A stretch of 47,912 nucleotides of DNA, taken from contig JANXUC010000168.1 of NCBI GenBank assembly GCA_025352065.1, positions 1 to 47,912 of the forward strand, given 5' to 3'. The DNA comes from Acidobacteriaceae bacterium. Its GTDB lineage: Bacteria > Acidobacteriota > Terriglobia > Terriglobales > Acidobacteriaceae. The position numbers and the translations under genes are program-made. Of this stretch, positions 8,832 to 28,174 are shown piece after piece; positions within the stretch are counted from its first letter, which is position 1; the number at the start of each line of letters is the position of its first letter. The notes under the pieces were generated by a model. That model saw only the letters and a list, made by a program, of their open reading frames with translations. It did no database searches and was not told the origin of the DNA.

Positions 8832-10322
8832 CTAGAATTTTCGGCTGTGCTCTTTCGCCCAGCGTTCGACAACTACTTTTTTCTCGGTATAAAACTCGAC
8901 TGCATCGCGACCCTGTCCATGCATCACTCCGAAAAAACTGTCCTTCCATCCGCTGAATGGGAAGTAGGCCATAGGAGCGGCGACGCCGATGTTGATGCCA
9001 ATATTTCCCGCCGGGGCTTCGTACCGAAACCGACGCGCGGCCGACCCACTCGATGTAAACAACGACGCCTGATTCCCGAACGGGCTATTCGACAGAAACT
9101 CCATTGCTTCATCCAGGTTGCTGGCGTGAACCATACTCAAAACCGGACCAAAGATTTCTGTATGGGTGAGTTCGCTTTCCGCCGGAACTCCATCCAGAAT
9201 CGTAGGCTTCAGAAAGTGCCCTGATTCATATTTCGAGATCTTCGGACTGCGGCCATCCACCAGAATCTTGGCTCCTTGCTTTTCGCCGAGCCCAATCAGC
9301 GACTCAATGCGATCCTTACTCTGCTTCGTGATCACCGGCCCCATCTGAGTTCCGTCGTCGAGGCCGTATCCGACACGAATTGAAGATGCCGCATCCGCGA
9401 TGGAGTCTCGAAATGTCTTCTGCGCTTCGCCAACCGTGACTGCAACAGAAACCGCCAGACAACGCTGCCCTGCGCAGCCAAACGCGCTGTCCGAGATGAT
9501 TTGAGTGGCCATACTCATGTCGGCGTCGGGGAGAATGACGACGGAGTTCTTCGCACCACCTTGGCACTGCGCTCGTTTCCCTTTTTCGCCAGCACGCGCA
9601 TAAATGTAGCGTGCTACAGGGGTAGAACCCACAAAACTAATTGCACGGACCTTGGGATGATCGATGAGAGTATCTACAGCTGTCTTGCCACCGTTCACAA
9701 GATTCACAACACCCTTCGGCAGACCAGTCTTGTCGAGAAGCTCAAACGCCAACTTCATAGTGAGCGGCACATGCTCGGATGGCTTCACGATCAGCGTGTT
9801 TCCGCAGGCGATTGCATAAGGCAGGAACCAGAACGGAATCATCCCGGGGAAATTAAATGGCGTAATGGCGGCAACCACACCCAACGGCTGCCGAATCATC
9901 ATCTCATCAATGCCGCGAGCCACATCTTCCAGGTTGTAGCCCTGCATCATCATGGGGATTCCGCAGGCTACTTCCACATTTTCGATGGCGCGGCGCAACT
10001 CACCTTTGGCTTCACCGAAAGTCTTGCCGTTCTCGCGCGTGATCACACGGGAAAGCTCGTCAATATGCTCTTCCAGCAAGAACTTCAGTTTGAACAGCGG
10101 CTGAATACGGTCCTCGGCGGGCGTACGCCGCCAATCCGGATAGGCAGCAGCCGCGGCTTCGACGGCCATAGAGACTTCCGCAGCTTCTACTTGCGGAACA
10201 CTGCCGAGAACTTCTCCGCTGGCCGGATTCATGACATCCTGCCAGTTGCTCGCGGTAGATTCGACCCATGCGCCATTGATGTAGTGCGGAACTTTAATTG
10301 CAGCAGCTGTCAACGTACTCAT
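8832..10322 (-). CDS. mmsA: CoA-acylating methylmalonate/malonate-semialdehyde dehydrogenase
   Basis: A 496-residue aldehyde dehydrogenase of the MMSDH class, which converts malonate semialdehyde to acetyl-CoA (or methylmalonate semialdehyde to propionyl-CoA) with NAD and CoA, releasing CO2. The nucleophile is Cys288 in [10 protein letters not shown]. The usual catalytic Glu motif (ELGGK) is replaced by CQGGAKNS at about 253-260, which is the diagnostic difference of CoA-dependent MMSDHs. [13 protein letters not shown] (153-165) is also characteristic. It lies 50 bp downstream of gabT and 35 bp upstream of a third aminotransferase in one minus-strand operon. In this context the likely substrate is malonate semialdehyde from beta-alanine transamination; valine or inositol degradation genes are not present. 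Confidence 0.93.
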
Positions 10323-11734: not shown

Positions 11735-11735
11735 C

Positions 11736-13262: not shown

Positions 13263-14687
13263 TCAAACTTGTGTAGCGGCTGCAAGTGCCGCCTTGCGTC
13301 GACCGTATACAAAAAAGAAGAAAACGGCTAGCCCGATAAAAAATGCTGTCCAGCCAAACATCTTGATTTCATACCACTTTAAGGACGTAATTTGCTGTGC
13401 CGGAAAGAACGCCAGCGCAATGCCCAGCATGGTGGTGACAAGTCCGCTCAGGCCCGCGAGAAACAATACTCCGCGACTATAGACTCCCTGCCCATCCTGA
13501 GCATGGAACGCAAACCGCAGCAACGCTCCAAACATGTAGAGGAACGGCACCAACTGCAGCACGACTGCTAGCGACAGCATGGTCTGGAACGTTTCCTGTA
13601 CGCCCGCGCCGCCCATAAAATTCATCACAACCAGCAACATCGAAACAACCGCATGCACGATCAAAGCTGCGTAGGGCGTGGCGTACTTCGGGTGTATCTT
13701 GCCCAGCCAGGACGGCATGTACGAGTCAAGTCCAGCGACAAACGGAATGCGCGCCGATCCTCCAAGCCACGCTGACCCAATGCCTGCAATCGACAAGCTC
13801 AGCAGGAATGCAAACGGCGCAACAATCCACGGCACTCCCACTTGCTCCGCCATGTGACTGACGGCTTGCACAATTCCCTGTAGAACGCTAATGCCGCCCT
13901 TACCAACCGCAACCAATAACGTCAAAGTAGCTGCAATGTAGAGCGCCCCGGAAATCAGGCCTCCCCAAGCTACTGCGCCCGGCAAAGTGCGGCGAGGGTC
14001 TTCAATCTCGTCCCCCATGACCGACGCCAGCTCGAGCCCGACTAACCCAAAACAGATGACTCCGAAAGAATTCAATACGAACTTCGGATCCGCAGGAAAC
14101 CGAAAATCCTCCGCAGCTATGTGTACTCCATTTCTGGATACTATGATGATACCGAGTCCAACTAGCACTCCAGCCGCAACAAACGTTCCGATACCACCAA
14201 GATTGTTGATCCACTTACCAACGCCGAGGCCCATGATGTTCAGAACCACCAAAACCGTTAGCAGCGACAGTGATGCAATCAGGGCGAACACCTTGTTATC
14301 GGCAAGCCCAGAATGCCCAGGTCCCAGTACGAATACTGACACTCCGACGAAATACAACATGACCGTTGGCACATACAGCATGTTATTCGTCCAGTAACAC
14401 CAGCCCGACAGAAAACCGTGGAAGTCGCCGAACACTTCCTTCGCCCAAAGATAGACGCCGCCTTCACCGGGATAACGGTGCGCCAACTCAATCACAGCTA
14501 TCCCTTGCGGCCAGAAAAACAAGACTAACGACACAATCCAGAGCCAGATGGTGACGCCGCCGTTCGCCGCAATCGACGGCACAACATTCAAGTTGAACAC
14601 CGCCACCACAAACAGAAGCACTAAGTCCCTTCGACCTAAAACACGCTTTAGGTGCGTGGATTCAGCCTCTGGTTCTTGAGCGGACAA
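13263..14687 (-). CDS. APC superfamily amino acid/amine permease
   Basis: A 474-residue integral membrane protein of the amino acid-polyamine-organocation superfamily with about 12 hydrophobic helices. The N-terminus carries the short cytoplasmic tail and the helix-1 break region (VAVFNLNVVPSIAANGG), and GEGGVYLWAKEVFGDFHGFL near residues 75-94 is a family hallmark. Translation starts at TTG 14687, supported by AAGAGGAGA five bases upstream. It lies second in the minus-strand catabolic operon, after a 92 bp gap that holds a strong hairpin. GABA, beta-alanine, an aminoalkane or glutamate are plausible substrates; sequence alone does not choose. The presence of both this carrier and a Pot-type ABC importer suggests uptake of two related amines or one substrate at two affinities. 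Confidence 0.88.
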   Translation of the reverse strand: MSAQEPEAESTHLKRVLGRRDLVLLFVVAVFNLNVVPSIAANGGVTIWLWIVSLVLFFWPQGIAVIELAHRYPGEGGVYLWAKEVFGDFHGFLSGWCYWTNNMLYVPTVMLYFVGVSVFVLGPGHSGLADNKVFALIASLSLLTVLVVLNIMGLGVGKWINNLGGIGTFVAAGVLVGLGIIIVSRNGVHIAAEDFRFPADPKFVLNSFGVICFGLVGLELASVMGDEIEDPRRTLPGAVAWGGLISGALYIAATLTLLVAVGKGGISVLQGIVQAVSHMAEQVGVPWIVAPFAFLLSLSIAGIGSAWLGGSARIPFVAGLDSYMPSWLGKIHPKYATPYAALIVHAVVSMLLVVMNFMGGAGVQETFQTMLSLAVVLQLVPFLYMFGALLRFAFHAQDGQGVYSRGVLFLAGLSGLVTTMLGIALAFFPAQQITSLKWYEIKMFGWTAFFIGLAVFFFFVYGRRKAALAAATQV

Positions 14688-14779: not shown

Positions 14780-16162
14780 CTAGTGCGCTGCAGCCAATAC
14801 CGGATTCTTCAAACGCTCATGTTGAGCTTCCGCCAGTGAATCCGCAATATCTGCGAAAGCTGCGATGTGCGCGTCAATATCGGCTTCCGTGTGTTGCACG
14901 GAAATCGTCCACTGCTCGTCCCACCAATAGGGTTGACACATCACGCCGCGATTGACCATGCCAAACCAATAGTGCCGCCATAGATCAACGTCAATTGGCT
15001 CCCAGTCGCGGTAGTTCCGGATCTCTTTCGGGTAAAACATTAGCGCGCCATTCGCCCCAGCTTCAGCGATATAGCCTTGGATGCCGGACTTAGCTACGAT
15101 CTTCCGATAGCCGTCGACTAACTTCATGCTCAGCTTGCCCACGTGAGCATAGTTCTCGCGTGTAAGCACTTCGCGGAAAGTCGCCAGACCGGCCGCCATC
15201 GCAACTGGATTCGTGTTGTAAGTACCACCATGGAAGACTTTGTGTTGCGCGATCAAATCCATGACGGAAGTATGCGCACCGAAAGCAGCCAGTGAAAATC
15301 CCCCGCCAATCGACTTCGCGATACAAATCATGTCCGGAATAACGCCGAAGTATTCCGAGGCACCGCCCCAGCAGAGTTTTGCGCCAGTTTTAACTTCGTC
15401 AAAAATGAGCAGCGAGCCGTTCTTGGTGCAGATATCCCGCAGTCCTTGCAGGAAGCCAGGTTGCGGCATGCAGAGACCGACATTCATCAAAATCGGCTCA
15501 AGAATTATCGCCGCGATTTGACCGGGGTTCTCCTTGAAACGCCGCTCCACGGAAACAAGGTCATTGAAGGTAGCGATCACGACATTATCAATAGACGCTT
15601 TTGGAACACCCATGCCGCCAGGCACCGACGTGGGAGCGTTGATATCTCCGTAATCCGGCGCATGCGGCTTCACGCTCACCAATGCGGCATCGTGCAAGCC
15701 GTGGTAAGCGCCCTCGAACTTCACAATCTTGTCCCGCTTGGTCGCAGCGCGAGCAATACGGATCGCGTGCATGGTCGCTTCCGTACCGCTGTTGCCAAAG
15801 CGACACATTTCAATTGGGAAGCGCGTACAGACTTCTTCCGCGAGTTCCCATTCCATGTCGTGAGGCATCCCGTACATAGTGCCGGTGCTCAGACGTTTCT
15901 CGACAGCCTTCATCACCGCCGGATGGCAGTGTCCCGCCATCAACGCGCCGAAAGTCAGGTTGTGATCTATGTATTCATTGCCATCCAAGTCACGGAACTT
16001 ACTGCCGCTGGCGTCTTTTACAAAGATGGGATAAGGATCGTAAGCCCGGTAGTTACTAGCAACGCCTAGCGGAAGGCGTTTGAGATTACGTTTGTGAGCT
16101 TCCGCGGATTTAGGCGTGCGGCGTTCATAGGTGGAAAGTTCTTTTTCCAGTTCAGGGTACAT
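14780..16162 (-). CDS. Class III aminotransferase, glutamate-1-semialdehyde-aminomutase-like subgroup
   Basis: A 460-residue PLP enzyme of the class III family but closest in style to the GSA aminomutase/aspartate-aminotransferase-family subgroup. Motifs are FGNSGTEATMHAIRIARA (122-139), FEGAYHGLHDAALVS (149-163), Asp255 in IFDEVKTG and the PLP Lys283 in CIAKSIGGGFSLAAFG. It is not HemL: the early segment and C-terminus are longer, and the locus lacks haem genes. ATG 16162 has GGAG 8 nt upstream. It is the first gene of the catabolic block after the TonB receptor, and one of three class III aminotransferases within 9 kb, none closely similar to the others. It may act on an amine (putrescine, diaminopropane) or an omega-amino acid. 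Confidence 0.87.
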   Translation of the reverse strand: MYPELEKELSTYERRTPKSAEAHKRNLKRLPLGVASNYRAYDPYPIFVKDASGSKFRDLDGNEYIDHNLTFGALMAGHCHPAVMKAVEKRLSTGTMYGMPHDMEWELAEEVCTRFPIEMCRFGNSGTEATMHAIRIARAATKRDKIVKFEGAYHGLHDAALVSVKPHAPDYGDINAPTSVPGGMGVPKASIDNVVIATFNDLVSVERRFKENPGQIAAIILEPILMNVGLCMPQPGFLQGLRDICTKNGSLLIFDEVKTGAKLCWGGASEYFGVIPDMICIAKSIGGGFSLAAFGAHTSVMDLIAQHKVFHGGTYNTNPVAMAAGLATFREVLTRENYAHVGKLSMKLVDGYRKIVAKSGIQGYIAEAGANGALMFYPKEIRNYRDWEPIDVDLWRHYWFGMVNRGVMCQPYWWDEQWTISVQHTEADIDAHIAAFADIADSLAEAQHERLKNPVLAAAH

Positions 16163-16302: not shown

Positions 16303-19300
16303 TTAGAAGAACAACTTCAATGCCACCTGCATCAACCGCGGATCAGCGGCTCGCTTGACCAGACCGAAATCTGAGCCGTCGCTGAAGATGCCGTCGGGGT
16401 TGAGGAACTTGGTGTGGTTGAACGCGTTAAAAACATCCAGCCGAAATTCTGTGCGAAAACGTTCGTTAATCGCCGTGTTCTTTTGAATGGAGATATCCGT
16501 GTTGTCAAGTCCGGATCCACAGCAAACGGAGCGGGGTGAAGTTCCTTGCACGCCCAAGGCTGGCGTCGAGAACTGCGCCGGATCAAAACCGTAGCCGGCG
16601 TGCTTGCGTGGATCCTGAGAATGAAACTTACCGCTCAAATTCGGGAATGTGGGGGACGAGAATCCAGACGAGTTGCCCGTAAGATTTTCGTCTCCGTAGG
16701 AGAAGATGTGGATCGGAAAACCCGATTGGAACTGCGTGATACCGGAAATAGCCCATCCATTCAAAGCCTTACCGGTGAAGCCGGAATATTTCGGGACCGG
16801 CAGTTCCCAGTAATAACTGGCCACAAAGCGGTGCCGCGCGTCGAACAAGGACACGGAGCGGGTACGTCGCGGGTTGGTGGGATCAAGGAAGTCCTCGAAG
16901 CTGGACGCCTGGTCAATCGACTTGCTCCAAGTGTAGGCGATCTGGGTTTGGAACCCTTTGCCAAAACGCTTGTCCAGACTCGCTTGGAAGGAGTTGTAGT
17001 TCGAAGCTCCTCGGGTGTCTTCAGCGAAAATGTTCGAGAAGACCGGAGCTCCATCCGTCGGACATCCAACACCGGTCGTCGGAACACAGTTCGGAGAAGA
17101 ATATGGCCGCAAACCAACGAGATCCAGATTCGTCCCGCCAGCGGCACCTGTTATCACCGTCCCGTTCGGCATGTGGAACGGCTGCCCGCTCGGCACCAAG
17201 ACGTTGTACTGGGAGTCTTCTCCAAACACTCCGCAAGAGTTGGGCCCACTGTACGTGTTGATGTCCAAACAGGTTTGTGGGTTAGCGCGATTTACGTCAA
17301 AACTCGCCAGCAGCCGGTGCGACTGCGAACCAACATAGCCGACCTGAAGTTGGGTTCCTTTAGCGATTTCGCGCTGAATGGTCAGGTTGTATTGCGCTGC
17401 ATACTGCGTACGCATATGCGGCTGGAATTCACCGAACAGCAAGATCGGCTCGAACAGGGACCAGTCAATCGCAGTGCCTGGTTTCGGATCGAGAACGCCA
17501 TTGGCGCCGTTTGCCAGCACCCTGCCGCTCTGGTTAACGTAAGGCGTATTGAACAGCGTGCTGGCGGTCGTCAAACTAATGCCAAACGGAGGCTCTGCGC
17601 TGAACTGCTCGAGCACGAGCTGCTCGATCGGGTTGTAGAACAGGCCCCAACCTCCGCGAATGCTGGTCTTGCCATCCCCTTTCGGATCCCAAGCCAAGCC
17701 AATACGGGGAGCAAAGGCCTTGTAATAAGTGGTCGTAAGTCCGTCCGGAACACCTTTCTCTCCCGGAAATACTAGGCCTGTCGGGAAGGCCGAAGCGCAA
17801 TCGTTTGTGCCGGTCTGCAGGCACGGGTAGCGCTGCGTCGATTGTCCGGGGCGGAAAGTCTGAACCCGCTTCCCAATATCTTTCTGAGGAGTGTTCAGTT
17901 CCCAACGCAAGCCATAATTCATGGTCAAGCGATTGCTGATTTTCCAACTATCCTGCCCGAAGAAGTAGAAGGATGATGTGCGCACGTGCTCCTGCTGCGC
18001 CGCACCCTGCTGGTATTGATCCGGCAACCCAAGGAGATAGTTCGGCAGCAGGCTCTGGGAAGCGCCGGAACCAGTACCGTTGAAGTATCCGGGATCATTG
18101 CCACTGCATATCTTCTTGATACCGGCAGGGTCGTTCGGATCGATCGTGCAGCTGCCAAAGTACTGGAAATAGCCGCTATTTTCGAAATAGAGAAACTGGT
18201 CAAACCGCATCCGCCGAACGTCGCCACCGAACTTAATGGTGTGTTTTCCCTTCACCAGCGTCATGCTGTCCGTAAATTGGAATGAATTCCCAACTTGCGG
18301 AAGCTCACCTTCAAAGTTATTGCCGATTACAAAACTACCGGAAACGGAAATGTCAGGGACACCTTCACGACCCGCTCCAAGACCAGGAGTAATGCCGTAT
18401 TTTGCATCGCTTGTTGCCAGACCATTCGCTGTAAACGCACCGGGAGCGTCCGTTGTCCCCGTAAAACAGAATGCCGCAGCGGCAGCACTGCAGGAATCAG
18501 TTACCAGATTGGTCTTCTGGGGGTGATTGAAAGTGCGCTGACCTTCGCGCATGTAAACTACGCGCGCTTCGTTCACGATGGAATTGGAGATAGTCCATGT
18601 GTGGCTGATATTCAGCTGTTGATCGCGGGTTGCGCTGTTGCCGCCGAAACCGGGAACATTGGCCCCGGCTGCCTGGAAGAAGTTGTAAGGATCGAACCTC
18701 GCCCCGTCCTGGTAATAATAGTAGCCGGAGAGGTTTTGTTTGTCGTTGATGCGATGATCGATCTTCAGCGTCGTTTGATCTGTGCGATTGCTCCCATTCA
18801 GGACGGCCTGGTAGGTGCTCGCGCCAACATTTGCGTTCGGCACGAACCTCAGCAGATCCGCAGCTACCGGATCTTGGCAGGCGGTCGGGATCTGGTTGTC
18901 AATTCCCGTCTTTGTGTTCGTGAAAATGCCAGGAACAACATTTGGACCCACCTGATGGGCGCCGTAAAAAGATCCTGATTGGATCACGGCACCAGGATTC
19001 TGCGCCAGCACGGCCGACTGGCATCCTGGTCTTGCATTGAAAATATCCGCCACAAACTGGTCGGAGATTTGACCACCAAAGTTCAGGCCTGAATTCAGGT
19101 CGGTAGCAAGAGCAGTTCCGCCCGCCGAGAAGTCTCCGCCCCGCTCGGCGTTGGTCGGTACAGTTACGTCGCCGCCCGACTGCCCCTTGCGAATACGGTC
19201 CCCTTCGTACGACGCGAAAAAGAAAGTCTTATTTTTTCGAATCGGCCCACCAAAAGTAGCGCCGAATTGATTCTGAACGTATTTCGCCCTGCTGGGATCG

Positions 19301-20118
19301 AAATATCCTTTCGAGTTCAAAACCTTGTTGCGGAGAAAGTCATAAGCGTTGCCGTGGAAGTTATTGCCGCCAGATTTCGTGACCACGTTAATGACAGAGC
19401 CAGAATTGCGTCCGGACTCAGCGTCAAACGCATTGGTCAGGACGCGGAACTCCTCGACTGCATCGGGACTGGGGTCAATGGTAGGAGTGTTGACGAACAA
19501 ATCGTTCGCGTCACCACCATTCACGCTGAAGTTATTCGCTCGGCCTCGACCGCCATTGACCGACACGCTTCCTGCATCCGAACTGCCCGTGTAGAGGTCC
19601 GCGCCAACGGTCGACTGCACACCAGGCTGCAACGCCAGGAACTGATACGTGTTGCGAGCGTTCAGTGGGAGCTGCGCAATCGAGCGATCGTTGATGACCG
19701 CTCCCAACTGCGTGCTGGTTGTATCCACGATCGGCGCTTCCGAGGTGACTTCGACAATATCCTTCCTCTCGCCGATCTGCATGGTCGTATTCAGCGTGAG
19801 GACCTGGTTGAGCTGCAGCAGGAGGTTGGCTTGTACATTCTTCTTGAACCCTGCGACGTCGAATTCGATCCGATAGGTGCCGACTGGCGCTTCCGGGAAA
19901 GAATAGGCTCCGGATTCGTTCGTGACTGTGTTGCGAATCACACCGCTTGCTTCATTAATGAGAGAGACCTGAACGGCAGCGAGTGAAGCGCCACTGGAAT
20001 CGATCACCTTACCCGCAATGCGGCCGCCCGTACTTTGAGCGGAAACTGCAGCTGTGGAGGTGAGTAAAAATGAGAAAACCAGCCACGCACAAGCGTGACG
20101 CATACGGGAAGCGCGCAT
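16303..20118 (-). CDS. Oar-like TonB-dependent receptor with carboxypeptidase-regulatory domain (1271 aa)
   Basis: A full-length outer-membrane receptor of the acidobacterial/Oar type. Residues 1-27 are a signal peptide ending VSA. Residues about 32-115 are a carboxypeptidase-regulatory/CNA-B-like beta sandwich (GRIAGKVIDSSGASLAAVQV, then GAYSFPEAPVGTYRIEF). The plug domain follows at about 120-245 (LNARNTYQFLALQPGV, SVNGGRGRANNFSVNGGDAND), and the rest is the beta barrel ending in the outer-membrane signal VALKLFF. ATG 20118 has GGAGGG upstream. It is divergent from the MerR-XRE-cupin regulator across 145 bp containing a perfect palindrome, and precedes the aminotransferase/dehydrogenase operon by 140 bp. 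This suggests it takes up the substrate of that pathway, but receptors of this family have no predictable ligand. Confidence 0.92.
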   Translation of the reverse strand: MRASRMRHACAWLVFSFLLTSTAAVSAQSTGGRIAGKVIDSSGASLAAVQVSLINEASGVIRNTVTNESGAYSFPEAPVGTYRIEFDVAGFKKNVQANLLLQLNQVLTLNTTMQIGERKDIVEVTSEAPIVDTTSTQLGAVINDRSIAQLPLNARNTYQFLALQPGVQSTVGADLYTGSSDAGSVSVNGGRGRANNFSVNGGDANDLFVNTPTIDPSPDAVEEFRVLTNAFDAESGRNSGSVINVVTKSGGNNFHGNAYDFLRNKVLNSKGYFDPSRAKYVQNQFGATFGGPIRKNKTFFFASYEGDRIRKGQSGGDVTVPTNAERGGDFSAGGTALATDLNSGLNFGGQISDQFVADIFNARPGCQSAVLAQNPGAVIQSGSFYGAHQVGPNVVPGIFTNTKTGIDNQIPTACQDPVAADLLRFVPNANVGASTYQAVLNGSNRTDQTTLKIDHRINDKQNLSGYYYYQDGARFDPYNFFQAAGANVPGFGGNSATRDQQLNISHTWTISNSIVNEARVVYMREGQRTFNHPQKTNLVTDSCSAAAAAFCFTGTTDAPGAFTANGLATSDAKYGITPGLGAGREGVPDISVSGSFVIGNNFEGELPQVGNSFQFTDSMTLVKGKHTIKFGGDVRRMRFDQFLYFENSGYFQYFGSCTIDPNDPAGIKKICSGNDPGYFNGTGSGASQSLLPNYLLGLPDQYQQGAAQQEHVRTSSFYFFGQDSWKISNRLTMNYGLRWELNTPQKDIGKRVQTFRPGQSTQRYPCLQTGTNDCASAFPTGLVFPGEKGVPDGLTTTYYKAFAPRIGLAWDPKGDGKTSIRGGWGLFYNPIEQLVLEQFSAEPPFGISLTTASTLFNTPYVNQSGRVLANGANGVLDPKPGTAIDWSLFEPILLFGEFQPHMRTQYAAQYNLTIQREIAKGTQLQVGYVGSQSHRLLASFDVNRANPQTCLDINTYSGPNSCGVFGEDSQYNVLVPSGQPFHMPNGTVITGAAGGTNLDLVGLRPYSSPNCVPTTGVGCPTDGAPVFSNIFAEDTRGASNYNSFQASLDKRFGKGFQTQIAYTWSKSIDQASSFEDFLDPTNPRRTRSVSLFDARHRFVASYYWELPVPKYSGFTGKALNGWAISGITQFQSGFPIHIFSYGDENLTGNSSGFSSPTFPNLSGKFHSQDPRKHAGYGFDPAQFSTPALGVQGTSPRSVCCGSGLDNTDISIQKNTAINERFRTEFRLDVFNAFNHTKFLNPDGIFSDGSDFGLVKRAADPRLMQVALKLFF

Positions 20119-20177
20119 CGAAACCCTCCGAGACGGAACTCAACTTTGCCGAACAACTAGCACTGGCAAGAGAAACA

Positions 20178-20202
20178 AACCTTGCTATAATCGTGCAAGG
20201 TT
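20178..20202. promoter_or_regulatory. Palindromic operator centred on a TATAAT -10 box
   Basis: AACCTTGC (20178-20185) and GCAAGGTT (20195-20202) are perfect inverted repeats around a 9 bp centre beginning TATAAT (20186-20191). It is the only strong palindrome in the 145 bp spacer between the divergent TonB receptor and the regulator gene. The ACCTTG...CAAGGT half-sites resemble those bound by MerR-family proteins, fitting the N-terminal domain of the neighbouring regulator. No good -35 hexamer lies 17 bp upstream of TATAAT on the plus strand. Such activator-dependent promoters are usual for the family, though overlap with the -10 would also allow repression. Confidence 0.7.
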
Positions 20203-20263
20203 ATTGAAAGTGTAGCGCCGTGTCAAGGAAAAACGCCATCCCCCTTGGCGAGATAGGGATCGA

Positions 20264-21079
20264 GTGTCTTCCAAAAATCATAGCGAGAATTCTTCTACCG
20301 ATTATCTGAAGATTGGGGACGTAGCGAAACTCGTCGGTGTTTCGCCTTCGGCTATCCGGGCCTGGGAGAGTCTTGGGCTTGCCCACCCGCAGCGCACCGA
20401 AAGCAAGTACCGGCTCTACACACGCGAAGACGTTAAGCTACTCAAACGCGCCCGCTATTTGCGAAAGGTGCGCGGTTTGAATGCGCCTGCCATCGTACAG
20501 TTATTGAAACGTCAAGGAGCGGTGCGCGCGCCAAAAAACGGGACATCCAGCGCCATCGGAGCGCGCTTGCGACAACTGCGCACAAAGCGCGGCCTGTCGC
20601 TGGCTGCTGTGGCCGAAAAGATCAATATCTCGGTCGGATTCCTGAGCGCCGTGGAACGCTCCCACATGAGCGCCTCCATCACTACGCTGCGCAAGCTGGC
20701 GCAATTCTATAAATCCAATATTTTGGAGTTCTTTGACCCGGGCGAATCGCATTCGCCGCTGGTCAGTCCGAAGACGCGCAAAGTGCTGGATGTTGCGCCG
20801 GGAATTTGCATGGAGCTGCTTGCCGTCGGCAACCCTGTTATGGAAGCCCACTTGTTCCGCATCGCTTCCGGTGCGGGCAGCGAAGAAAGTTATACGCACG
20901 AAGGCGAAGAATTCCTGTATGTTCTTCGAGGCGAGTTTGCTATCGCGCTGGAGAAGGAAGAATACCGGCTAAAACCGGGAGACAGTTTTTACTTTGAGAG
21001 CACCACGCCGCACCGGTGGTCGAACCCCGGCAAAGTTGAAACGCAAGTGTTGTGGATCAACACGCCGCCAACGTTCTAA
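20264..21079 (+). CDS. Three-domain transcription regulator: MerR HTH + XRE HTH + cupin
   Basis: A 271-residue regulator with an uncommon arrangement. Residues 14-84 are a MerR-type winged helix (LKIGDVAKLVGVSPSAIRAW, then ESKYRLYTREDVKLL). Residues 97-155 are an XRE/Cro-type HTH (IGARLRQLRTKRGLSLAAVA, then ISVGFLSAVER). Residues 190-266 are a cupin barrel with His212/Glu216 in THEGEEFLYVLRGEF and His250 in TTPHRW as likely metal or ligand contacts. The XRE-cupin part has the layout of PuuR, the E. coli putrescine-utilisation repressor. Start is GTG 20264 after an AGGGA-like site. It is divergent from the TonB receptor and heads the amidohydrolase/Pot/FAD-oxidase run 36 bp upstream of the next gene, so it is the obvious local regulator, probably sensing an amine through the cupin. 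Confidence 0.9.
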   Translation: MSSKNHSENSSTDYLKIGDVAKLVGVSPSAIRAWESLGLAHPQRTESKYRLYTREDVKLLKRARYLRKVRGLNAPAIVQLLKRQGAVRAPKNGTSSAIGARLRQLRTKRGLSLAAVAEKINISVGFLSAVERSHMSASITTLRKLAQFYKSNILEFFDPGESHSPLVSPKTRKVLDVAPGICMELLAVGNPVMEAHLFRIASGAGSEESYTHEGEEFLYVLRGEFAIALEKEEYRLKPGDSFYFESTTPHRWSNPGKVETQVLWINTPPTF

Positions 21080-21115: not shown

Positions 21116-22864
21116 ATGCCCGTGACACGAACGCAAGCAGCGAGCAGTTGGATCCTCAGTTTCTCGATCACACTCTTAGTCCTGTCTAGCATGGCCTTCG
21201 CCGCTGGCCAACAAAAGGCCACCATAATTCTAACGAACGCCCGGATTTATACCGTTAACTTGCATCAGCCGTGGGCGGAAGCGCTGGCTGTTTCCGAAGA
21301 CAGAATTATTGCGGTGGGCACAAAACAGCAGATCGACGAATACCGCGGCCCCAACACACAGGTCATTGATGCTCACGGTCAACTGGTGCTGCCTGGATTC
21401 ACCGATTGCCACATTCATTTCATGCAGGGGTCTTTAGGTTTGCAGCATGTCGACTTGAATGGCACGGAAAGTGTCGCCGAGATTCAGGAGCGCGTAAGAA
21501 CCTACGCCGCCGCACATCCGAAAGAACTCTGGATACTTGGCATGGGCTGGCAGTATCCCATATTTGGGCCGTCGGCATTACCCCACAAAAGATTGCTGGA
21601 TGAAATAGAACCGAATCGCCCCATCCTTCTCGATGCATACGACGGCCACACCACTTGGGCCAACAGCAAAGCTCTGGCTCTAGCCGGAATAACTAAGGAC
21701 ACGCCGAATCCACCGAACGGAACTATCGTCAAAGATGAAAATGGTGAACCAACTGGAGCGCTGAAGGAAAGCGCGGGCGACCTGGTGGGCAAACTCACGC
21801 CAAAACCGACGCGGGAAGAACGCATGGTGGCACTCCGCGCTGGACTCCGCGAAGCTAATCGTGTGGGCCTCACACGAGTGCATAGTGCCGGAGGTGACTT
21901 TGAATACCTTGACCTCTATGACGAACTTCGAAAGCAAGGCCAGCTCACGGTTCGGCAGTATATTGCATACTTCCTCGATCCACCCGAACTAACGAAGGAT
22001 GCACTCGGCAAAATAGAAGAAGCTCGACGCATCTACCACGATGACTGGATCGAAGGCGGATTGGTAAAGACCATGCTCGATGGCGTGGTCGAGTCGCACA
22101 CGGCCGCCATGCTCGAACCGTATTCGGATGACCCCACCCAAAGCGGCAAACTCTTTTGGGATCCCACAAAATACAAAGAAGCGGTTGCTGAACTCGACAA
22201 GCGTGGCATTCAGGTCATGACTCACTCCATCGGGACGAGTGCGGTACGACTGGCGCTGGATGCCTATGAAGGCGCTGCTCAGACCAATCACAGCCGCGAT
22301 CTCCGGCACAAAATCGAACATATCGAAACGATTACGGCGAACGATATTCCACGCTTTGGCACACTCGGCGTAGTGGCCAGCTTCCAGCCGCTACACGCTT
22401 ATCCGGACGACGACACACTGAAGGTGTGGGCGGTGAACGCCGGGCCAGATCGTGCCTCGCGCGCATGGGCGTGGCAGAGCGTCGCCAGGAGCGGAGGCCG
22501 CCTCGCATTCGGCAGCGATTGGCCCGTCGTCACCTTGAATCCATGGCATGGAATCCAGAATGCCGTCACGCGTCAGAAGCGGGACGGCACACCCGCAGGA
22601 GGATGGGTACCCAACGAGCGAGTAACTTTGGAACAAGCCATAGAAGGTTACACCCTGGGTGCGGCTTTCGCGGGCCATCGGGAAGCATCAGAGGGGTCCC
22701 TCGAAAAAGGCAAATTAGCAGACCTTCTTGTTCTGGATCGAGATCTCTTCAAGATCGCTCCGAGTGACATTCATAGAACCAACGTCCTCCTAACCATGGT
22801 TGGAGGCAAGATCGTGCACCAGGCGGCGGAGATGGCTGCCACGACTACGGGGAATTCCAAATGA
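21116..22864 (+). CDS. Exported amidohydrolase (YtcJ-like, amidohydrolase 3 family)
   Basis: A 582-residue metal-dependent amidohydrolase with a signal peptide (hydrophobic 11-30, AFAAG). The metal site is intact: His99 and His101 in GFTDCHIHF, the later His in HKIEHIETI and Asp in LAFGSDWPV. This is the YtcJ/Nfd-type subgroup that hydrolyses N-acyl, formamide or cyclic amide bonds. ATG 21116 lies close behind an AGGGG site; a GTG two codons on (21122) is better spaced from it, and sequence cannot decide between them. Its stop overlaps the start of the substrate-binding protein gene (ATGA), so it is translationally coupled to the Pot-type importer. That suggests it releases the imported amine from an acylated or amide precursor outside the cytoplasm. 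Confidence 0.88.
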   Translation: MPVTRTQAASSWILSFSITLLVLSSMAFAAGQQKATIILTNARIYTVNLHQPWAEALAVSEDRIIAVGTKQQIDEYRGPNTQVIDAHGQLVLPGFTDCHIHFMQGSLGLQHVDLNGTESVAEIQERVRTYAAAHPKELWILGMGWQYPIFGPSALPHKRLLDEIEPNRPILLDAYDGHTTWANSKALALAGITKDTPNPPNGTIVKDENGEPTGALKESAGDLVGKLTPKPTREERMVALRAGLREANRVGLTRVHSAGGDFEYLDLYDELRKQGQLTVRQYIAYFLDPPELTKDALGKIEEARRIYHDDWIEGGLVKTMLDGVVESHTAAMLEPYSDDPTQSGKLFWDPTKYKEAVAELDKRGIQVMTHSIGTSAVRLALDAYEGAAQTNHSRDLRHKIEHIETITANDIPRFGTLGVVASFQPLHAYPDDDTLKVWAVNAGPDRASRAWAWQSVARSGGRLAFGSDWPVVTLNPWHGIQNAVTRQKRDGTPAGGWVPNERVTLEQAIEGYTLGAAFAGHREASEGSLEKGKLADLLVLDRDLFKIAPSDIHRTNVLLTMVGGKIVHQAAEMAATTTGNSK

Positions 22865-23919
22865 AACGATGGCTCGCAATTCCGCCGCTGGTAGCAATTC
22901 TTGTTTTAGGATCCTGCGCAAAGAAAACGCCCACCTTGAATTTGCTGGTATGGGAGGGCTATGCCGATGCGTCATACGTAAAGGCGTTTGAGGAAGAGAA
23001 CGGCTGCAAGATCTCAGCCTCGTATATGGGGTCAAGCGATGAACTCGTAGCCAAACTGCGCGGCGGGAGTGCATCGAACTACGACGTAATTTCTCCCTCC
23101 AGCGACGTGGCCGCCATGATCGCTACGAATGGGTTGGCGGCTCCGCTCGACCTGACCAAACTTCCTTCTTACAACCAGCTCTCTCCGAAGCTTACTTCTC
23201 TGCCTCTTGTGCGGGTAAACGGGCAAGTATATGGCGTGCCGTTTATGTGGGGCCCGGATCCCCTTATCTACGATTCGACCGTGTTCCCAACGCCTCCAGA
23301 AAGCTGGAGCGTACTCTGGGACGCGAAGTACAAAGGCAAGATTGCGGTTTGGGACGATCTTTCCACTGTCTACATGGCGGCGCAGGTACTGGGCTACGAC
23401 AAGCCAAATCAAGAACAACTGTACAACTTGACCGACGAACAACTCGAAGCAGTCAAGAAGAAACTGCTGGAGTTGAAGCCCAACGTCCGCAAAATGTGGT
23501 CCACCGGCGGTGAACTCACAAATTTATTCCAAAACCATGAAGTCGTCGCCGCCATGGGGTGGCCGCTCATGACCAACCAGCTCCGTAAAAGCGGGTTCCC
23601 AGTCGGTGAAACGATCCCGAAAGAAAACACTACGGGATGGATCGATCATTTAATGATTACTTCAGCCAGCGAGAATAAAGAACTGGCACACAAGTTCCTG
23701 GAATTCATGATTCAAGCGCAAACGCAAAAGAAGATCACCGATGTGACCGGCTATACGCCAGCCAATCCACAAGCCGGGCAGCTCATGACCGCCAACGAAA
23801 AGAAGAATCTACACTTGGACGATGTCGACAAATACCAGCAACGCATCTACTTCTGGCAAAACGTTTCACGGCGCAGCAAGTACAACGAGATTTGGAACGA
23901 AGTGAAAGCAGCTCAGTAG
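22861..23919 (+). CDS. potD: Spermidine/putrescine-type ABC transporter substrate-binding lipoprotein
   Basis: A 352-residue periplasmic binding protein of the PotD/PotF family. Residues 5-18 form the hydrophobic signal and LGSC gives lipidation at Cys19. LNLLVWEGYAD (28-38) is the usual PotD/PotF opening, followed by FEEENGCKISASYMGSSDEL and the conserved YGVPFMWGPDPLIYD. ATG 22861 overlaps the amidohydrolase stop by 4 bp and has GGGGA upstream. It is the first of four contiguous transporter genes (binding protein, ATPase, two permeases). A polyamine or related amine is the best family-based ligand guess; the exact ligand-contact residues were not mapped, so the symbol denotes family rather than proven specificity. 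Confidence 0.87.
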   Translation: MKRWLAIPPLVAILVLGSCAKKTPTLNLLVWEGYADASYVKAFEEENGCKISASYMGSSDELVAKLRGGSASNYDVISPSSDVAAMIATNGLAAPLDLTKLPSYNQLSPKLTSLPLVRVNGQVYGVPFMWGPDPLIYDSTVFPTPPESWSVLWDAKYKGKIAVWDDLSTVYMAAQVLGYDKPNQEQLYNLTDEQLEAVKKKLLELKPNVRKMWSTGGELTNLFQNHEVVAAMGWPLMTNQLRKSGFPVGETIPKENTTGWIDHLMITSASENKELAHKFLEFMIQAQTQKKITDVTGYTPANPQAGQLMTANEKKNLHLDDVDKYQQRIYFWQNVSRRSKYNEIWNEVKAAQ

Positions 23920-23926
23920 GCCCCGC

Positions 23927-24970
23927 ATGGCGCTTCTCTCCGTTCGCAACGTCGCCAAAAGCTTCGGCAAGACGCAAGTCCTGCGCGACATTTCTCTCGA
24001 AGTCGCCGAGGGTGAATTCCTCACCATTCTGGGCGAATCCGGTTCTGGCAAAACCACGCTGCTGCGCATCGTCGCCGGATTCGAACAGGCTACGTCCGGC
24101 GAGCTTTGGATGGACGGCGAACGATTGGACGCGCTCCCTCCTTACAAACGGCGCGTCAATACAGTCTTCCAGCACTACGCCCTCTTCCCGCATATGACGA
24201 TTGAGGCAAACGTCGGCTATGGCCTGCACATCGCTGGCGTTCCTAAAGCCGAAACTACAACCCGTGTTGAAGAGGCGCTTGCGATGATCAAGATGACGGC
24301 GCACGCAAAGAAGAAACCCTCGAAGATTTCCGGCGGACAACAACAGCGGGTGGCACTGGCAAGAGCGTTAGTAAATCGGCCGAAGTTGCTACTACTCGAC
24401 GAGCCGCTTTCGGCGTTGGATGCCAACTTGCGGCGCCAGATGCAGATCGAGTTGAAGGCTCTCCAGCGTGAAGTCGGGATTGCTTTCGTCTTCATCACGC
24501 ACGATCAGGAAGAAGCCATGGTGATGTCGGACAGGATCGCTCTACTGCGGGGCGGGAACCTGGAACAGATCGCGGCGCCACGGGAAATCTACAATCGTCC
24601 GGCAACCGCCTATGTCGCACAGTTCATCGGGCACACCAACCTTCTCCGCGGACGCGTGGAGAAGGGCATCGCACATTGCGGCTCGATGTCGTGGCCCGTC
24701 AGCCTTGCCGATGGCCCGTGTGCCTTTTCAGTCCGCCCGGAAAACATTCGCGTCGCGACCAGCCCCGCAAATGGCGCGGTGGGCTTTGAAGGAAAGCTCC
24801 TGAATCAGGCTTTTCACGGGGCCACCGAACTCCTGCGCGTGGAGACATCCGACAAGTCTGTGTTCTCAGTGCGGGTAGCGGGAATGGGTACGCAAGGATT
24901 GGCGAACACGCTAAAACTGGAATTCTCTCCGCAGGATGCTATTCCAGTTCGCGACGCGGAGGCCACGTAA
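23927..24970 (+). CDS. potA: Polyamine-type ABC transporter ATPase
   Basis: A 347-residue ABC ATPase of the PotA/CysA-like group. Walker A is GESGSGKT (36-43), the signature SGGQQQRVALARAL begins at 135, Walker B LLLLDEP is 154-160 and the switch His is 192 in THDQEEA. The C-terminal 110 residues form the TOBE regulatory domain (FIGHTNLLRGRV, FSVRPENIRV). It lies 7 bp after the binding-protein gene and its stop overlaps the permease start by one base (TAATG). It energises the two downstream permeases. All catalytic motifs are complete. Confidence 0.93.
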   Translation: MALLSVRNVAKSFGKTQVLRDISLEVAEGEFLTILGESGSGKTTLLRIVAGFEQATSGELWMDGERLDALPPYKRRVNTVFQHYALFPHMTIEANVGYGLHIAGVPKAETTTRVEEALAMIKMTAHAKKKPSKISGGQQQRVALARALVNRPKLLLLDEPLSALDANLRRQMQIELKALQREVGIAFVFITHDQEEAMVMSDRIALLRGGNLEQIAAPREIYNRPATAYVAQFIGHTNLLRGRVEKGIAHCGSMSWPVSLADGPCAFSVRPENIRVATSPANGAVGFEGKLLNQAFHGATELLRVETSDKSVFSVRVAGMGTQGLANTLKLEFSPQDAIPVRDAEAT

Positions 24971-25815
24971 TGTTTTCACGCGCGTACAAGGCTGCGGTCA
25001 GCCTTCCTCCGTTAATATGGGTTACGCTCTTCCTGCTCGTACCCTACCTCCTAATGTTTTGCTACAGCTTCTGGACGGTAGCTGGCGGTAACGTCGTTCA
25101 TCAATGGAATCTGAGCAATTACGGCGACTTGATTACGAAAGATGTTTATAGAGCGACTCTCTTCCGCTCCATGAGGATTGCCGCCCGGGTCACGATCTTC
25201 GCACTGCTGCTCGGCTACCCTCTGGCCTATTTCTTATCATTTTATGCGGGGGCTCGCAAGAATCTGTTCTATCAACTCGTCATCATCCCTCTCTGGGTCA
25301 GCTACCTCGTCCGCGCCTACGCGTGGAAGACGATTCTAGGCACCGACGGTGTCCTGAACACGCTCCTGCAATTTCTGCACATCACGCAGCATCCTGTAGA
25401 TTCTCTTCTTTACAGCCCATTCGCAGTCGTTCTCACGCTCACGCATATCTATACGCCGTTTGTGGTATTGCCGATTTATGCGGCCTTGGAACACATACCG
25501 CGCACTCTGGTTGAGGCTTCCAATGACCTTGGCGCCTCACCCGCGCAGACATTCTGGCGAGTCATCTTCCCTCTTTCCGTTCCTGGAATGGTTGCCGGAG
25601 CGACGTTCGCATTCGTTCTCAGCCTTGGAGATTTTCTGGCCCCGCAGCTTCTGGGCGGACCCAGCGGCATCATGATTTCGAACATCGTAGTCAGTCTCTT
25701 TGGTGCGGCCTTCAACTGGCCATTGGGCGCGGCAATTTCGTTCTGCATTCTGGTACTAGTTGTTTCACTGTTGGCACTGACCGAGCGACTTGAAAAGAAA
25801 TGGAGCTACTCGTGA
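24970..25815 (+). CDS. potB: Polyamine-type ABC transporter permease, PotB-like
   Basis: A 281-residue inner-membrane permease with about six hydrophobic segments. The EAA loop that contacts the ATPase is EASNDLGASPAQTFWRVIFP near residues 182-201. Start ATG 24970 shares its first base with the stop codon of the ATPase gene and has GGAGG 8 nt upstream. The following permease starts inside its last codons, so the pair is translated in coupling. The first-permease position and the NVVHQWNLSNY segment are typical of PotB/PotH proteins. Confidence 0.92.
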   Translation: MFSRAYKAAVSLPPLIWVTLFLLVPYLLMFCYSFWTVAGGNVVHQWNLSNYGDLITKDVYRATLFRSMRIAARVTIFALLLGYPLAYFLSFYAGARKNLFYQLVIIPLWVSYLVRAYAWKTILGTDGVLNTLLQFLHITQHPVDSLLYSPFAVVLTLTHIYTPFVVLPIYAALEHIPRTLVEASNDLGASPAQTFWRVIFPLSVPGMVAGATFAFVLSLGDFLAPQLLGGPSGIMISNIVVSLFGAAFNWPLGAAISFCILVLVVSLLALTERLEKKWSYS

Positions 25816-26645
25816 GTACCGGCGCACACGCCTCCCGCAAATTGCGCTGGCTCTCCGTACATTCCGTCGCCGTCTATGCGTTTCTATATCTGCCCATCGT
25901 TACGCTGATCGTGTATTCGTTCAACGGCGCGGGTGTTGGAGGATTCCCTCCGCGCAATCTTACTCTGAACTGGTACCGCATTCTATGGCAGGACGATCCC
26001 ATCTGGGTCTCCGTGCAGAACAGTCTGATCGTCGCTGCATCCGCGGTCGGAATTGCTCTCGGTTTCGGAATTCCAGCGGCGCTAGCGTTGGATCGTGCCG
26101 ACTTCCCCGGTAAAGCCATTTTCCGAAGGCTGGTGCTGCTGCCGCTCATCCTGCCGGGAATCATTACAGGGCTATCGATTCTAATGCTGGTCAATGTCGC
26201 GCAGGTCAAGCTAAGCCTGTGGACAATTATCCTCGGCCACGGCACGGCGCTAATTTCCGTCGCAACAACCGAAGTCTTCGCTGGCTTGCAAAAGCTGGAC
26301 CGCGCTCAGGAAGAAGCCTCGCTCGATCTCGGAGCAAACTACTGGCAAACGTTTTGGCGAATCACTCTTCCGAATCTAAAGCTTCCCATCATTGGCGCTG
26401 CACTGCTGATCTTCACCCTGTCGATGGATGAAATAGCCGTCAGTTTTTTCCTCATCGGCCGCGACAATACACTGCCGCTTGAAATCTGGGGACGTTTGCG
26501 CCGCGGCATTACTCCAGAAATCAACGCTATTTCAACAGTCATTTTTGTCTTTTCGCTGGTCGCCATCGTTCTCTGGTACAGAATGAGGATGCCCGCAGAA
26601 ATACCTGCAGAAATGCCAGCGGAGAATTCCGTTTCCTATCTCTAA
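25812..26645 (+). CDS. potC: Polyamine-type ABC transporter permease, PotC-like
   Basis: The second permease of the importer, about 277 residues with six predicted helices. The EAA loop is EASLDLGANYWQTFWRITLP. The segment YLPIVTLIVYSFNGAG is the usual PotC opening, and MDEIAVSFFLIGRDNTLPLEIWG is its common C-terminal block. GTG 25812 is chosen because it overlaps the upstream stop by 4 bp and has GGAG 6 nt upstream; an in-frame ATG at 25800 would add four residues. It is followed after 26 bp by the FAD oxidase gene, which appears to belong to the same transcript. Confidence 0.9.
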   Translation: MSTGAHASRKLRWLSVHSVAVYAFLYLPIVTLIVYSFNGAGVGGFPPRNLTLNWYRILWQDDPIWVSVQNSLIVAASAVGIALGFGIPAALALDRADFPGKAIFRRLVLLPLILPGIITGLSILMLVNVAQVKLSLWTIILGHGTALISVATTEVFAGLQKLDRAQEEASLDLGANYWQTFWRITLPNLKLPIIGAALLIFTLSMDEIAVSFFLIGRDNTLPLEIWGRLRRGITPEINAISTVIFVFSLVAIVLWYRMRMPAEIPAEMPAENSVSYL

Positions 26646-26671: not shown

Positions 26672-28174
26672 ATGAGTGCCAATCGTAGAGACTTCATAAA
26701 ATACGTGGTCGCGGGCGCCGTGGCCAGTGGCTGCCCCATAGATCAAACGTTGCTGGCAGCTCCTAACGATACGGCGCCCCAAGTTGAGGGCGAAGAAAAC
26801 CGCATCTGCCATCAAGTACGCGATGGCCATACTTTCACACTGCCTCCCGCAACCAAACGGCACGATGTTGTGATCGTCGGCGGAGGCATCAGCGGCCTGA
26901 CCGCAGCACACTTACTGCAGCATCGCGATTGCCTTCTTCTGGAAAAGGAACCGCATTTTGGCGGCAATGCCTATGCGATGGAGCACGACGGCATGGCCTT
27001 CTCTACCGCGGCCGCTTATACGGAAGTTGAGGTGGCCGATTGGCTCGCCAGCGAAATCGGTATGGAAAAACTTCCGATTGCCAACTGGGATGGCACGATC
27101 ATCCAAGGTGAGTTTATCCCGGACACATGGGGTGACGGTCTCGATCACCTTCCGTATTCGCAAAGCATTCGTGAAAGCTTCAAGAAGTTCCGCCATGAAA
27201 TGCTCGGCATCGATGTGGAGAATCGCATCGCCGAACTTGACAATCAGCCGTTTTCCAACTTCATGAAGGGATACGCCCCTGAAATTCAGCAGTGGTGGGA
27301 TGGTTTCGGCCCCTCGAACTGGGGAGCAGTCAGCAACGAATCCTCGGCTGCGCTGGGCATATGGGCTGTGCAATTTGCAGGTGGAGAGAAGCGCGTCGAC
27401 AACCGTTACACCTGGCCGGGAGGTTTAGGCGCAATTTCCAAGCGCTACACCGAACTACTGCGACCAAAGATGGGCGAACGCATGGTGGGCGGCGCCACCA
27501 TCGTCAGCGTGGCGCAGCAAAAGCATGAGGCACACGTGACCTACATGCACGCTGGCGCACTACATACAGTCGCTGCCAAGGCAGTCATCATGGCCACTCC
27601 GAAGTTCATCACCCGACGAATCGTGCATGGACTCCCGCAAAAGCAGAATGACGCTATGGGAAAAATTCGCTACCAACCCTATCCAATTGTGAACCTGATT
27701 TTCGACCAGCCCATCTTCAATAAAGGCTACGATAACTGGTGCCCAGGCAACCGCTTTACTGACTTTATCGTAGCCGACTGGGTCGTGCGCAACAAGCCCG
27801 GATACAAGCAAAAGCACAACATCCTAACCTGCTACACGCCACTGCGGGAGCACGAGCGCGCACTCCTGCTGACCGAAGCAGGCGCGCAGAAGATTGCAGC
27901 TGAGGTCCTACACGATTTCCAAATGCTATTTCCAGGATCGGACGTCAACCCGAAAGAAGTCCACATCTACAGGCGAGGGCATCCTCTCTTTATGTCAACG
28001 CCAGGCCAATACACAAAGACCATGCCTTTGGTACGCGAACCGATGGAAAGAGTTTTCTTCGCGAATACCGACTCCGAAGGGCCGGAATCGACCACGGCAA
28101 TGGCCATCCAAGCCGCCCGGCGCGCAGTGAAACAAGCTGAAGCTCGGCTGGCGGGTAAACCTGTGGCAGCATAG
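26672..28174 (+). CDS. Tat-exported FAD-dependent amine-oxidase-like protein
   Basis: A 500-residue flavoprotein. NRRDFIK at 4-10 followed by a hydrophobic Ala/Val/Gly stretch is a Tat signal, and ASGC at 18-21 could be a lipobox, so it is probably folded with FAD and placed outside the cytoplasmic membrane. The Rossmann motif VGGGISG lies at 69-75, and the FAD-ribose Glu91 precedes PHFGGNAY. The C-terminal FFANTDSEGPESTTAMAIQA is the second FAD contact of the amine-oxidase/phytoene-desaturase superfamily. ATG 26672 has GAGGAG upstream. It ends the Pot-type operon. Spermidine dehydrogenase or another polyamine oxidase is the natural guess in this setting; the family is broad, so the substrate remains inferred. 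Confidence 0.82.
   Translation: MSANRRDFIKYVVAGAVASGCPIDQTLLAAPNDTAPQVEGEENRICHQVRDGHTFTLPPATKRHDVVIVGGGISGLTAAHLLQHRDCLLLEKEPHFGGNAYAMEHDGMAFSTAAAYTEVEVADWLASEIGMEKLPIANWDGTIIQGEFIPDTWGDGLDHLPYSQSIRESFKKFRHEMLGIDVENRIAELDNQPFSNFMKGYAPEIQQWWDGFGPSNWGAVSNESSAALGIWAVQFAGGEKRVDNRYTWPGGLGAISKRYTELLRPKMGERMVGGATIVSVAQQKHEAHVTYMHAGALHTVAAKAVIMATPKFITRRIVHGLPQKQNDAMGKIRYQPYPIVNLIFDQPIFNKGYDNWCPGNRFTDFIVADWVVRNKPGYKQKHNILTCYTPLREHERALLLTEAGAQKIAAEVLHDFQMLFPGSDVNPKEVHIYRRGHPLFMSTPGQYTKTMPLVREPMERVFFANTDSEGPESTTAMAIQAARRAVKQAEARLAGKPVAA

Follow-up and report, generated by a model that had tools for sequence, protein, structure and literature searches.

A MerR–XRE–cupin regulator and a conserved predicted operator at a GABA/polyamine-type gene cluster of Acidobacteriota

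Eight XRE–cupin transcription factors (TFs) from Pseudomonas aeruginosa are described, in the available part of PMC7901475, as inhibitors of neighboring genes, and the same part reports that dimeric XRE–cupin TFs bind palindromes; palindrome binding by XRE regulators is likewise reported in the available part of PMC12565409. The term MerR does not occur in the main text of PMC7901475. Among MerR-type proteins, GlnR and TnrA bind a 17-bp box, TGTNAN7TNACA, through a MerR-like winged helix-turn-helix (wHTH), according to the available parts of PMC9948412 and PMC9249791. No paper on a three-domain MerR–XRE–cupin layout was found in a full-text literature search whose coverage left out most subscription papers; PMC7824862, matched by the words MerR, XRE and cupin, carries them in unrelated places in its available text.

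Here we analyzed such a regulator in a 47,912-nt stretch of an Acidobacteriaceae contig (hereafter the window). Sequence comparisons indicate a real, conserved and amine-linked protein, a variant of the XRE–cupin repressors for which we found no characterized member and which is not a PuuR. Annotated plasmid records mostly call its relatives “MerR family”, hiding the XRE and cupin halves. The operator predicted below offers a concrete handle on how the work is split between the two HTH folds of a single chain and, if our reading is true, a regulator would be named for GABA/polyamine use in soil Acidobacteriota and for gabT–gabD in rhizobia.

Table 1 Coordinates of the regulator, its domains, predicted regulatory elements and neighboring genes in the window
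Feature	Position	Strand	Basis
Class III aminotransferase, third transaminase leftward	7501..8796	−	Two families listed, both below cut-off
(Methyl)malonate-semialdehyde dehydrogenase	8832..10322	−	TIGR01722, 569 bits vs 448.5
4-Aminobutyrate transaminase (GabT)	10373..11749	−	TIGR00700, 574 bits vs 506.65
Aldehyde dehydrogenase	11736..13217	−	43% identical to E. coli PuuC
APC amino-acid/amine permease	13263..14687	−	Domain search (Pfam)
Class III aminotransferase	14780..16162	−	Domain search (Pfam)
Outer-membrane beta-barrel protein with carboxypeptidase-regulatory-like domain, first gene leftward	16303..20118	−	Pfam OMP_b-brl_4, 657 bits
Predicted regulator-operon promoter, CTGGCA-17-TATAAT	20163..20191	+	Scanner, 10/12; shuffle mean 0.1
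Predicted operator, perfect 25-bp dyad AACCTTGC-TATAATCGT-GCAAGGTT	20178..20202		Inverted-repeat search
Predicted divergent promoter, TTGACA (20226–20221), 17 nt, TAACCT (20203–20198)	20198..20226	−	By eye
MerR–XRE–cupin regulator gene	20264..21079	+	ORF, 271 aa, GTG start; Pfam domains, AlphaFold2
MerR_1 winged HTH, aa 16–83	20309..20512	+	Pfam, 66 bits vs cut-off 21.6
XRE/HTH_3 domain, aa 102–155	20567..20728	+	Pfam, 59.6 bits vs cut-off 23
Cupin_2 domain, aa 197–265	20852..21058	+	Pfam, 72.9 bits vs cut-off 27.2
Amidohydro_3 hydrolase	21116..22864	+	Domain search (Pfam)
PotD/A/B/C-like ABC transporter, 4 genes	22861..26645	+	Best matches Pot/polyamine models, all below cut-off
Flavin amine oxidase-like protein	26672..28174	+	Domain search (Pfam)

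Architecture and distribution of the regulator

No alternative ATG, GTG or TTG lies between the GTG start of the regulator gene and the in-frame stop 5′ of it. The initial annotation had read MerR, XRE and cupin domains in a single chain, and both domain search and structure prediction bear this out. All three domains score far above their Pfam cut-offs (MerR_1, E = 3.4e-18; HTH_3, E = 3.1e-16; Cupin_2, E = 1.7e-20), and the Pfam MerR model (51 bits vs cut-off 28.2) and HTH_31 (49.5 bits vs cut-off 27) match as well. An N-terminal winged HTH above the Pfam gathering score places the protein in the MerR superfamily, and HTH_3 followed by Cupin_2 places it among the XRE–cupin TFs. The AlphaFold2 monomer model, built on a 48-row alignment of the window protein and 47 relatives (pLDDT 77.3, pTM 0.42), comprises a winged HTH (residues 17–83), a five-helix HTH (95–157) and a beta barrel (174–267), with low-confidence stretches at 90–96 and 159–166 between the folded units.

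Identity to the window protein over the 47 relatives averages 72.7% in the MerR, 65.4% in the XRE and 69.6% in the cupin domain, and only 28.9% and 38.1% in linkers 84–96 and 158–172; from these high domain and low linker values the regulator appears to consist of three constrained domains on flexible tethers. Helix 3 of the XRE domain (123–131), 85.6% conserved in alignment A2 and 61.0% in 35 diverse members, is the best-conserved HTH segment among those measured, which argues that the XRE head is no relic. Within the cupin, Y210, H212, E215, E216 and H250 are invariant in 15 of 15 rows of alignment A1; going by the cupin motif, we take them to be pocket or metal ligands, a tyrosine standing in for the first histidine. 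All five are lost in the Arthrobacter protein L108, and L105 retains part of them.

The same layout recurs in many genomes, ruling out a lone gene fusion or an artefact. MerR_1, HTH_3/HTH_31 and Cupin_2 were found together in seven of seven relatives scanned with Pfam (L104, L108, L014, L130, L105, L009 and L015). A scan of a genome collection confirmed at least 564 relatives among at least 593 pattern matches; 80 were kept and checked for the MerR domain, and 79 of these match into the MerR part, the exception (L082) ending at a contig end. A similar truncation disposes of L133 as a MerR-less member, for its locus also ends at a contig end. The layout is represented in Acidobacteriota, Hyphomicrobiales and Arthrobacter. 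In an even phylum sample, 16 of 396 genomes match the regulator at E ≤ 1e-20; 15 of these matches begin at residue 17 or earlier, and G066 is XRE–cupin only. For the window's family, that sample lists 24 genomes, four of which carry the regulator. Class samples at E ≤ 1e-40 gave 18/193 (16 once the fragment L133 and the XRE-only G066 are set aside), 1/148 and 2/162 matching genomes. Matching plasmid records number 169, of which 83 are from Sinorhizobium, and 122 plasmid records cover at least 80% of the query at one place. These comparisons portray a layout that is widespread yet patchy. A tree of the XRE–cupin regions, in which the eight XRE-only rows require three changes and long branches meet, does not establish a single origin of the layout. 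One contig labeled Betaproteobacteria (L078) holds an acidobacterial cluster (regulator 59%, aminotransferase 77% identical) and is probably a mislabeled metagenome-assembled genome.

The amine gene neighborhood

The polyamine-type operon of the initial annotation is recovered here as a polyamine/GABA-type neighborhood that relatives conserve. Neighbor conservation was scored in the 80 kept acidobacterial-type loci, each gene being counted only where the flank suffices. The outer-membrane protein, presumably TonB-type/Oar-like, is matched by a counterpart of 40% identity or more at 65/65 loci, and the aminotransferase behind it (14780..16162) is kept at 51/51. The APC permease and the aldehyde dehydrogenase are each kept at 47/47 loci and the GABA transaminase at 46/47; rightward, the PotD-like gene is kept at 43/52, the Pot-like permeases at 41/49, the amidohydrolase at 26/58 and the amine oxidase-like gene at 23/48. 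The cluster aminotransferase (14780..16162) is 63–100% identical across the four regulator-bearing genomes of the family, and its best match in the other 20 of 24 reaches at most 40%. Judged by these comparisons, the link of the regulator to amine genes is strong. The initial annotation had also held that its view would fail if the architecture were commonplace and unrelated to amine genes elsewhere: commonplace it proved to be, unrelated to amine genes it did not.

Outside the acidobacterial-type loci, Hyphomicrobiales plasmids carry the same kind of regulator divergent from gabT, usually with gabD. Among annotated plasmid loci, L100 has gabT alone, and L103 and L104 are also annotated with the regulator divergent from gabT; tblastn placed gabT opposite the regulator at L101, L107, L140 and L142–L145 and detected none in the flank of L141. 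No gabT lies beside the regulator in Arthrobacter L105 and L108 or in S. sumterensis L106, where a different class III aminotransferase lies 0.9 kb from the regulator. Across the wider phylum, L015, L118, L121 and L123 each adjoin a GabT/PuuE-like protein (45% identity or more), and none was seen within the mere 1.5 kb of flank that most other such loci have.

Taken as a whole, the cluster looks like a transaminase route and not the gamma-glutamyl Puu route. Spermidine would feed two branches, one through GABA (GabT) and one through beta-alanine and malonate semialdehyde. The MMSDH-type enzyme (8832..10322) beside GabT hints at a beta-alanine branch besides the GABA branch, and on this two-branch reading it would serve the beta-alanine/malonate-semialdehyde branch. 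Two tRNA genes, at 31020–31093 (+) and 42904–42976 (−), are the window's only Rfam matches at gathering thresholds, and no riboswitch was seen in the window at those thresholds.

A predicted operator over putative divergent promoters

How two HTH domains share operators had been posed as an open question by the initial annotation; a partial answer may lie in one dyad, the predicted operator, placed over both putative divergent promoters. The dyad, of general form AACCTTGC-N9-GCAAGGTT and core YTRY-N9-RYAR, is the sole inverted repeat of 6 bp or longer in the 145-bp intergenic region and the only match in the window at up to three mismatches (chance mean 0.20); exactly one exact copy occurs in the 4.25-Mb genome, at this locus. 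The rightward −10 TATAAT opens the dyad spacer and belongs to the only promoter that the scanner reported. On the opposite strand, a perfect TTGACA serves as the predicted −35, and the matching leftward −10, TAACCT, reaches into the dyad's right arm, scores only 3/6 and was missed by the scanner. In 57 aligned upstream regions, the TGTCAA columns of the leftward −35 are 98–100% conserved, and the mean majority base is 97% over the dyad (99% in its arms) vs 54% over the remaining intergenic region. Among 79 acidobacterial upstream regions (window included), the 8-bp dyad is exact in 53 and replaced by the AACCTTACTATAAT variant in 21; five show neither.

Within the window's family, the exact dyad is present in four of four regulator-bearing genomes vs none of the 20 listed without the regulator. 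At up to two mismatches, dyad sites occur in 17 of 24 family genomes vs 15 of 24 for a reversed control; 13 of the 20 regulator-less genomes have such a site, and two hold sites with a single mismatch. Only the exactness of the dyad discriminates between the two groups. A large dyad regulon was ruled out, since up to three mismatches return 29 sites in the genome vs 28 for the reversed control.

Elsewhere in the same genome, a 2-mismatch site, AACCTTACTATAAAGCAGCAAGCTT, precedes by 20 nt the start of a class III transaminase gene that is not linked to the cluster (L111:119–1525, contig C158) and whose product exceeds the NF005453 cut-off. No site of this type precedes the 74% orthologue in G023, where the best candidate has four mismatches, and in G084 a similar 2-mismatch site lies ahead of a short ORF that, judged by eye, does not encode an amine enzyme or transporter. 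We therefore regard AACCTTACTATAAAGCAGCAAGCTT as suggestive and do not claim it as a second operator. The G023 orthologue (L174, contig C97) has one TAA inside the open-frame column of the match.

The spacing of the dyad was examined in the 125 of 129 loci (window included) with at least 120 nt upstream, L133 and L134 having been excluded beforehand; the pairs L008/L138 and L015/L137 each represent the same site, and many of the rows are kin. Palindromic YTRY arms peak at a 9-nt spacer, with counts of 64/82 among near relatives and 17/43 among the rest. Other spacers give 0–19 for the near relatives, the runner-up being spacer 8 with 19, and 0–5 for the rest. A perfect dyad is absent from 26 of the 43 distant upstream regions; these include L008, L015 and L105 as well as a group of eight loci showing none (L118, L121, L123, L124, L126, L127, L128 and L135). 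Shinella has CTTGC-ATTTTTTCT-GCAAG and Allorhizobium CTAC-ATTTTTTCG-GTAG; in Arthrobacter, CTAC-N9-GTAG occurs in two copies upstream of L108 and not at L105. The region upstream of L014 contains TTGTAATTATATTACAA. At L130, L132 and L136, arms of the form AACCTT(G/A)C...GTAAGGTT lie within one or two mismatches of the window arms and flank an unrelated spacer.

Twenty loci had remained uninspected until the pattern was fixed, and their expectations come from first-order Markov resamplings, which are not exact dinucleotide shuffles. YTRY-N9-RYAR is present in seven of them (four of the seven being kin of earlier rhizobial loci) vs an expected mean of 0.43 and a maximum of 4 in 1000, and a degenerate form in 13 vs a mean of 2.3 and a maximum of 7. 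For the 14 loci from the window's phylum, the dyad occurs in three (mean 0.22; 2 of 1000 resamplings as high) and the degenerate form in eight (mean 1.2, none as high); the dyad also occurs in four of six loci on plasmids, a set made up mainly of kin of earlier loci. Paired dyads 26–35 bp apart, some imperfect, were noted upstream of L085, L073, L103, L145, L108, L140 and L129; at L085 the spacer of the second dyad lacks TATAAT.

Proposed mechanism, alternatives and known systems

The sequence supports the domains, the dyad, its conservation, its co-occurrence with the regulator and the gene neighborhood. From these we infer DNA binding, a dyad-reading HTH, dimerization, repression, operon extents and a ligand, and we consider it reasonably likely that the regulator acts locally, with its MerR HTHs on the dyad, to repress both itself and an omega-amine (polyamine/GABA) catabolic gene cluster until a ligand releases it. 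The cupin would keep the protein dimeric and sense a pathway metabolite; a GABA-pathway compound would be a likelier signal than putrescine, because a GabT-type transaminase and a semialdehyde dehydrogenase are the enzyme types that this cluster has in common with the loci of rhizobial relatives. Within the dimer, the pair of MerR-type winged HTHs would read the palindrome, and the XRE HTHs may add grip on DNA beside the dyad or tie dimers together. Since the dyad overlaps both predicted −10 regions, rightward (for regulator, hydrolase, Pot-like transporter and amine oxidase) and leftward (for outer-membrane protein, aminotransferases, permease and dehydrogenases), a single occupied dyad would block RNA polymerase in both directions. 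This overlap, at a normal 17-bp promoter spacing, argues for steric repression, the mode reported for XRE–cupin regulators of Pseudomonas (PMC7901475), over MerR-type activation, and the operator position suggests that repression would be released by ligand.

The MerR head is probably the dyad reader, in our estimate with fair assurance, because the 17-bp core has the size of the MerR-type GlnR/TnrA box. Under a different division of labor, the dyad would be read by the XRE HTHs, in the manner of PauR/PsdR-type XRE–cupin repressors, and the MerR domain would play an accessory part by contacting flanking DNA, RNA polymerase or some other protein. The XRE head remains compatible with the dyad, since XRE regulators also bind palindromes, and it contains the best-conserved helix noted above; one palindromic YTRY-N9-RYAR also lies between E. 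coli puuR and puuC. That palindrome may be a chance occurrence: the 12-kb E. coli puu stretch contains three vs 1.5 in first-order Markov resamplings. Against XRE reading stand the box size, a MerR domain conserved like the rest of the protein, and the lack of the palindrome in all eight regions of XRE–cupin-only relatives (upstream of L002, L134 and L146–L150, plus the puuA–puuD region for PuuR), a small control in which several genes are operon-internal. We accordingly rate XRE reading as doubtful, although a serious contender; the XRE site may instead be the conserved TGTCAAG block, which doubles as the −35 hexamer.

Other readings touch the mode of action and the identity of the protein. 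A MerR_1 domain and a dyad inside the promoter region would suit a classical MerR-type activator, bound to the promoter with or without ligand and distorting an over-long spacer. MerR activators work at promoter spacers of 19–20 bp and have a long dimerization helix after the HTH, whereas both predicted spacers here are 17 bp (the leftward one read by eye) and the moderately confident AlphaFold2 monomer model has no long helix at that point, helices 74–83 and 95–108 being split by a low-confidence stretch; activation of this kind is unlikely. It is quite unlikely, too, that the protein is a PuuR orthologue, that is, a putrescine-specific repressor with an added domain. The XRE–cupin half is PuuR-like, as the initial annotation proposed (over 179 aa it is 31% identical to PuuR of E. 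coli), and a Pot-like transporter adjoins the gene, but a close tie to PuuR itself did not hold up: the match to NCBIfam NF007408 reaches 84.9 bits vs a 211-bit cut-off. Comparison of 28 window proteins with PuuA, PuuB and PuuD of E. coli gave no match at E ≤ 1e-5, and the genome offers no good PuuA, its one match (32% over residues 123–394) lying on another contig; moreover, E. coli puuA–puuD lacks a YTRY-N9-RYAR site, and annotated rhizobial members adjoin gabT–gabD, not puu genes. The dyad might, finally, be a conserved feature of a bidirectional promoter or the site of another regulator. It contains TATAAT and adjoins TTGACA, so its conservation is partly promoter conservation; yet the near-invariance of its arms, their recurrence with other spacers and in other phyla beside the same protein family, and the split of the exact dyad between family genomes with and without the regulator make such independence very unlikely.

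Returning to ligand-released autorepression, a more far-reaching version is tentative and would not be our first expectation. Here a cupin dimer would carry four DNA-binding heads of two unrelated folds, with the MerR pair on the cross-phylum YTRY-N9-RYAR and the XRE pair on a second element, forming a ligand-controlled clamp that locks two divergent promoters; the proteins would then make up a widespread, uncharacterized one-component class. Candidates for the second element are the TGTCAAG...AAA block at ~20221–20233 or, where present, tandem dyads 26–35 bp apart.

Among the closest known systems are proteins recorded as “MerR family transcriptional regulator” beside gabT on Sinorhizobium, Shinella and Allorhizobium plasmids, 37.7–39.0% identical over 93–99% of the query. 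The S. meliloti protein has the three domains by Pfam, and the dyad geometry is that of the window. Their surroundings differ: gabT–gabD (S. meliloti, Shinella) or gabT (Allorhizobium) adjoins, and neither a Pot-like cluster nor an outer-membrane gene is annotated next door in the stretches seen.

The XRE–cupin repressors PuuR of E. coli and PauR, PsdR and ErfA of Pseudomonas share the XRE domain with C-terminal cupin and the local neighborhood. In the available part of PMC7901475, their predicted inhibition is lifted by a pathway metabolite, as we propose here, and PuuR and PauR are linked to polyamines. The present regulator differs in its extra N-terminal MerR winged HTH, and its dyad was not seen in the XRE-only regions scanned. 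The rows listed by fold searches consist chiefly of cupins, alongside two-domain enzymes of epoxidase/dioxygenase type and the HTH_3 regulator 1y9q, a PDB relative, and say little about the MerR part. For that part, HspR (NF047375) is the best MerR-type NCBIfam match, at 46.8 bits over residues 15–89 only and short of the cut-off of 105, and GlnR is among the PDB sequence matches (7tec, E = 5.4e-6). With GlnR/TnrA (and HspR) the regulator shares a MerR wHTH, which in the moderately confident monomer model shows no long coiled coil, and a 17-bp palindrome; the regulator differs from them in possessing its own XRE HTH and cupin sensor.
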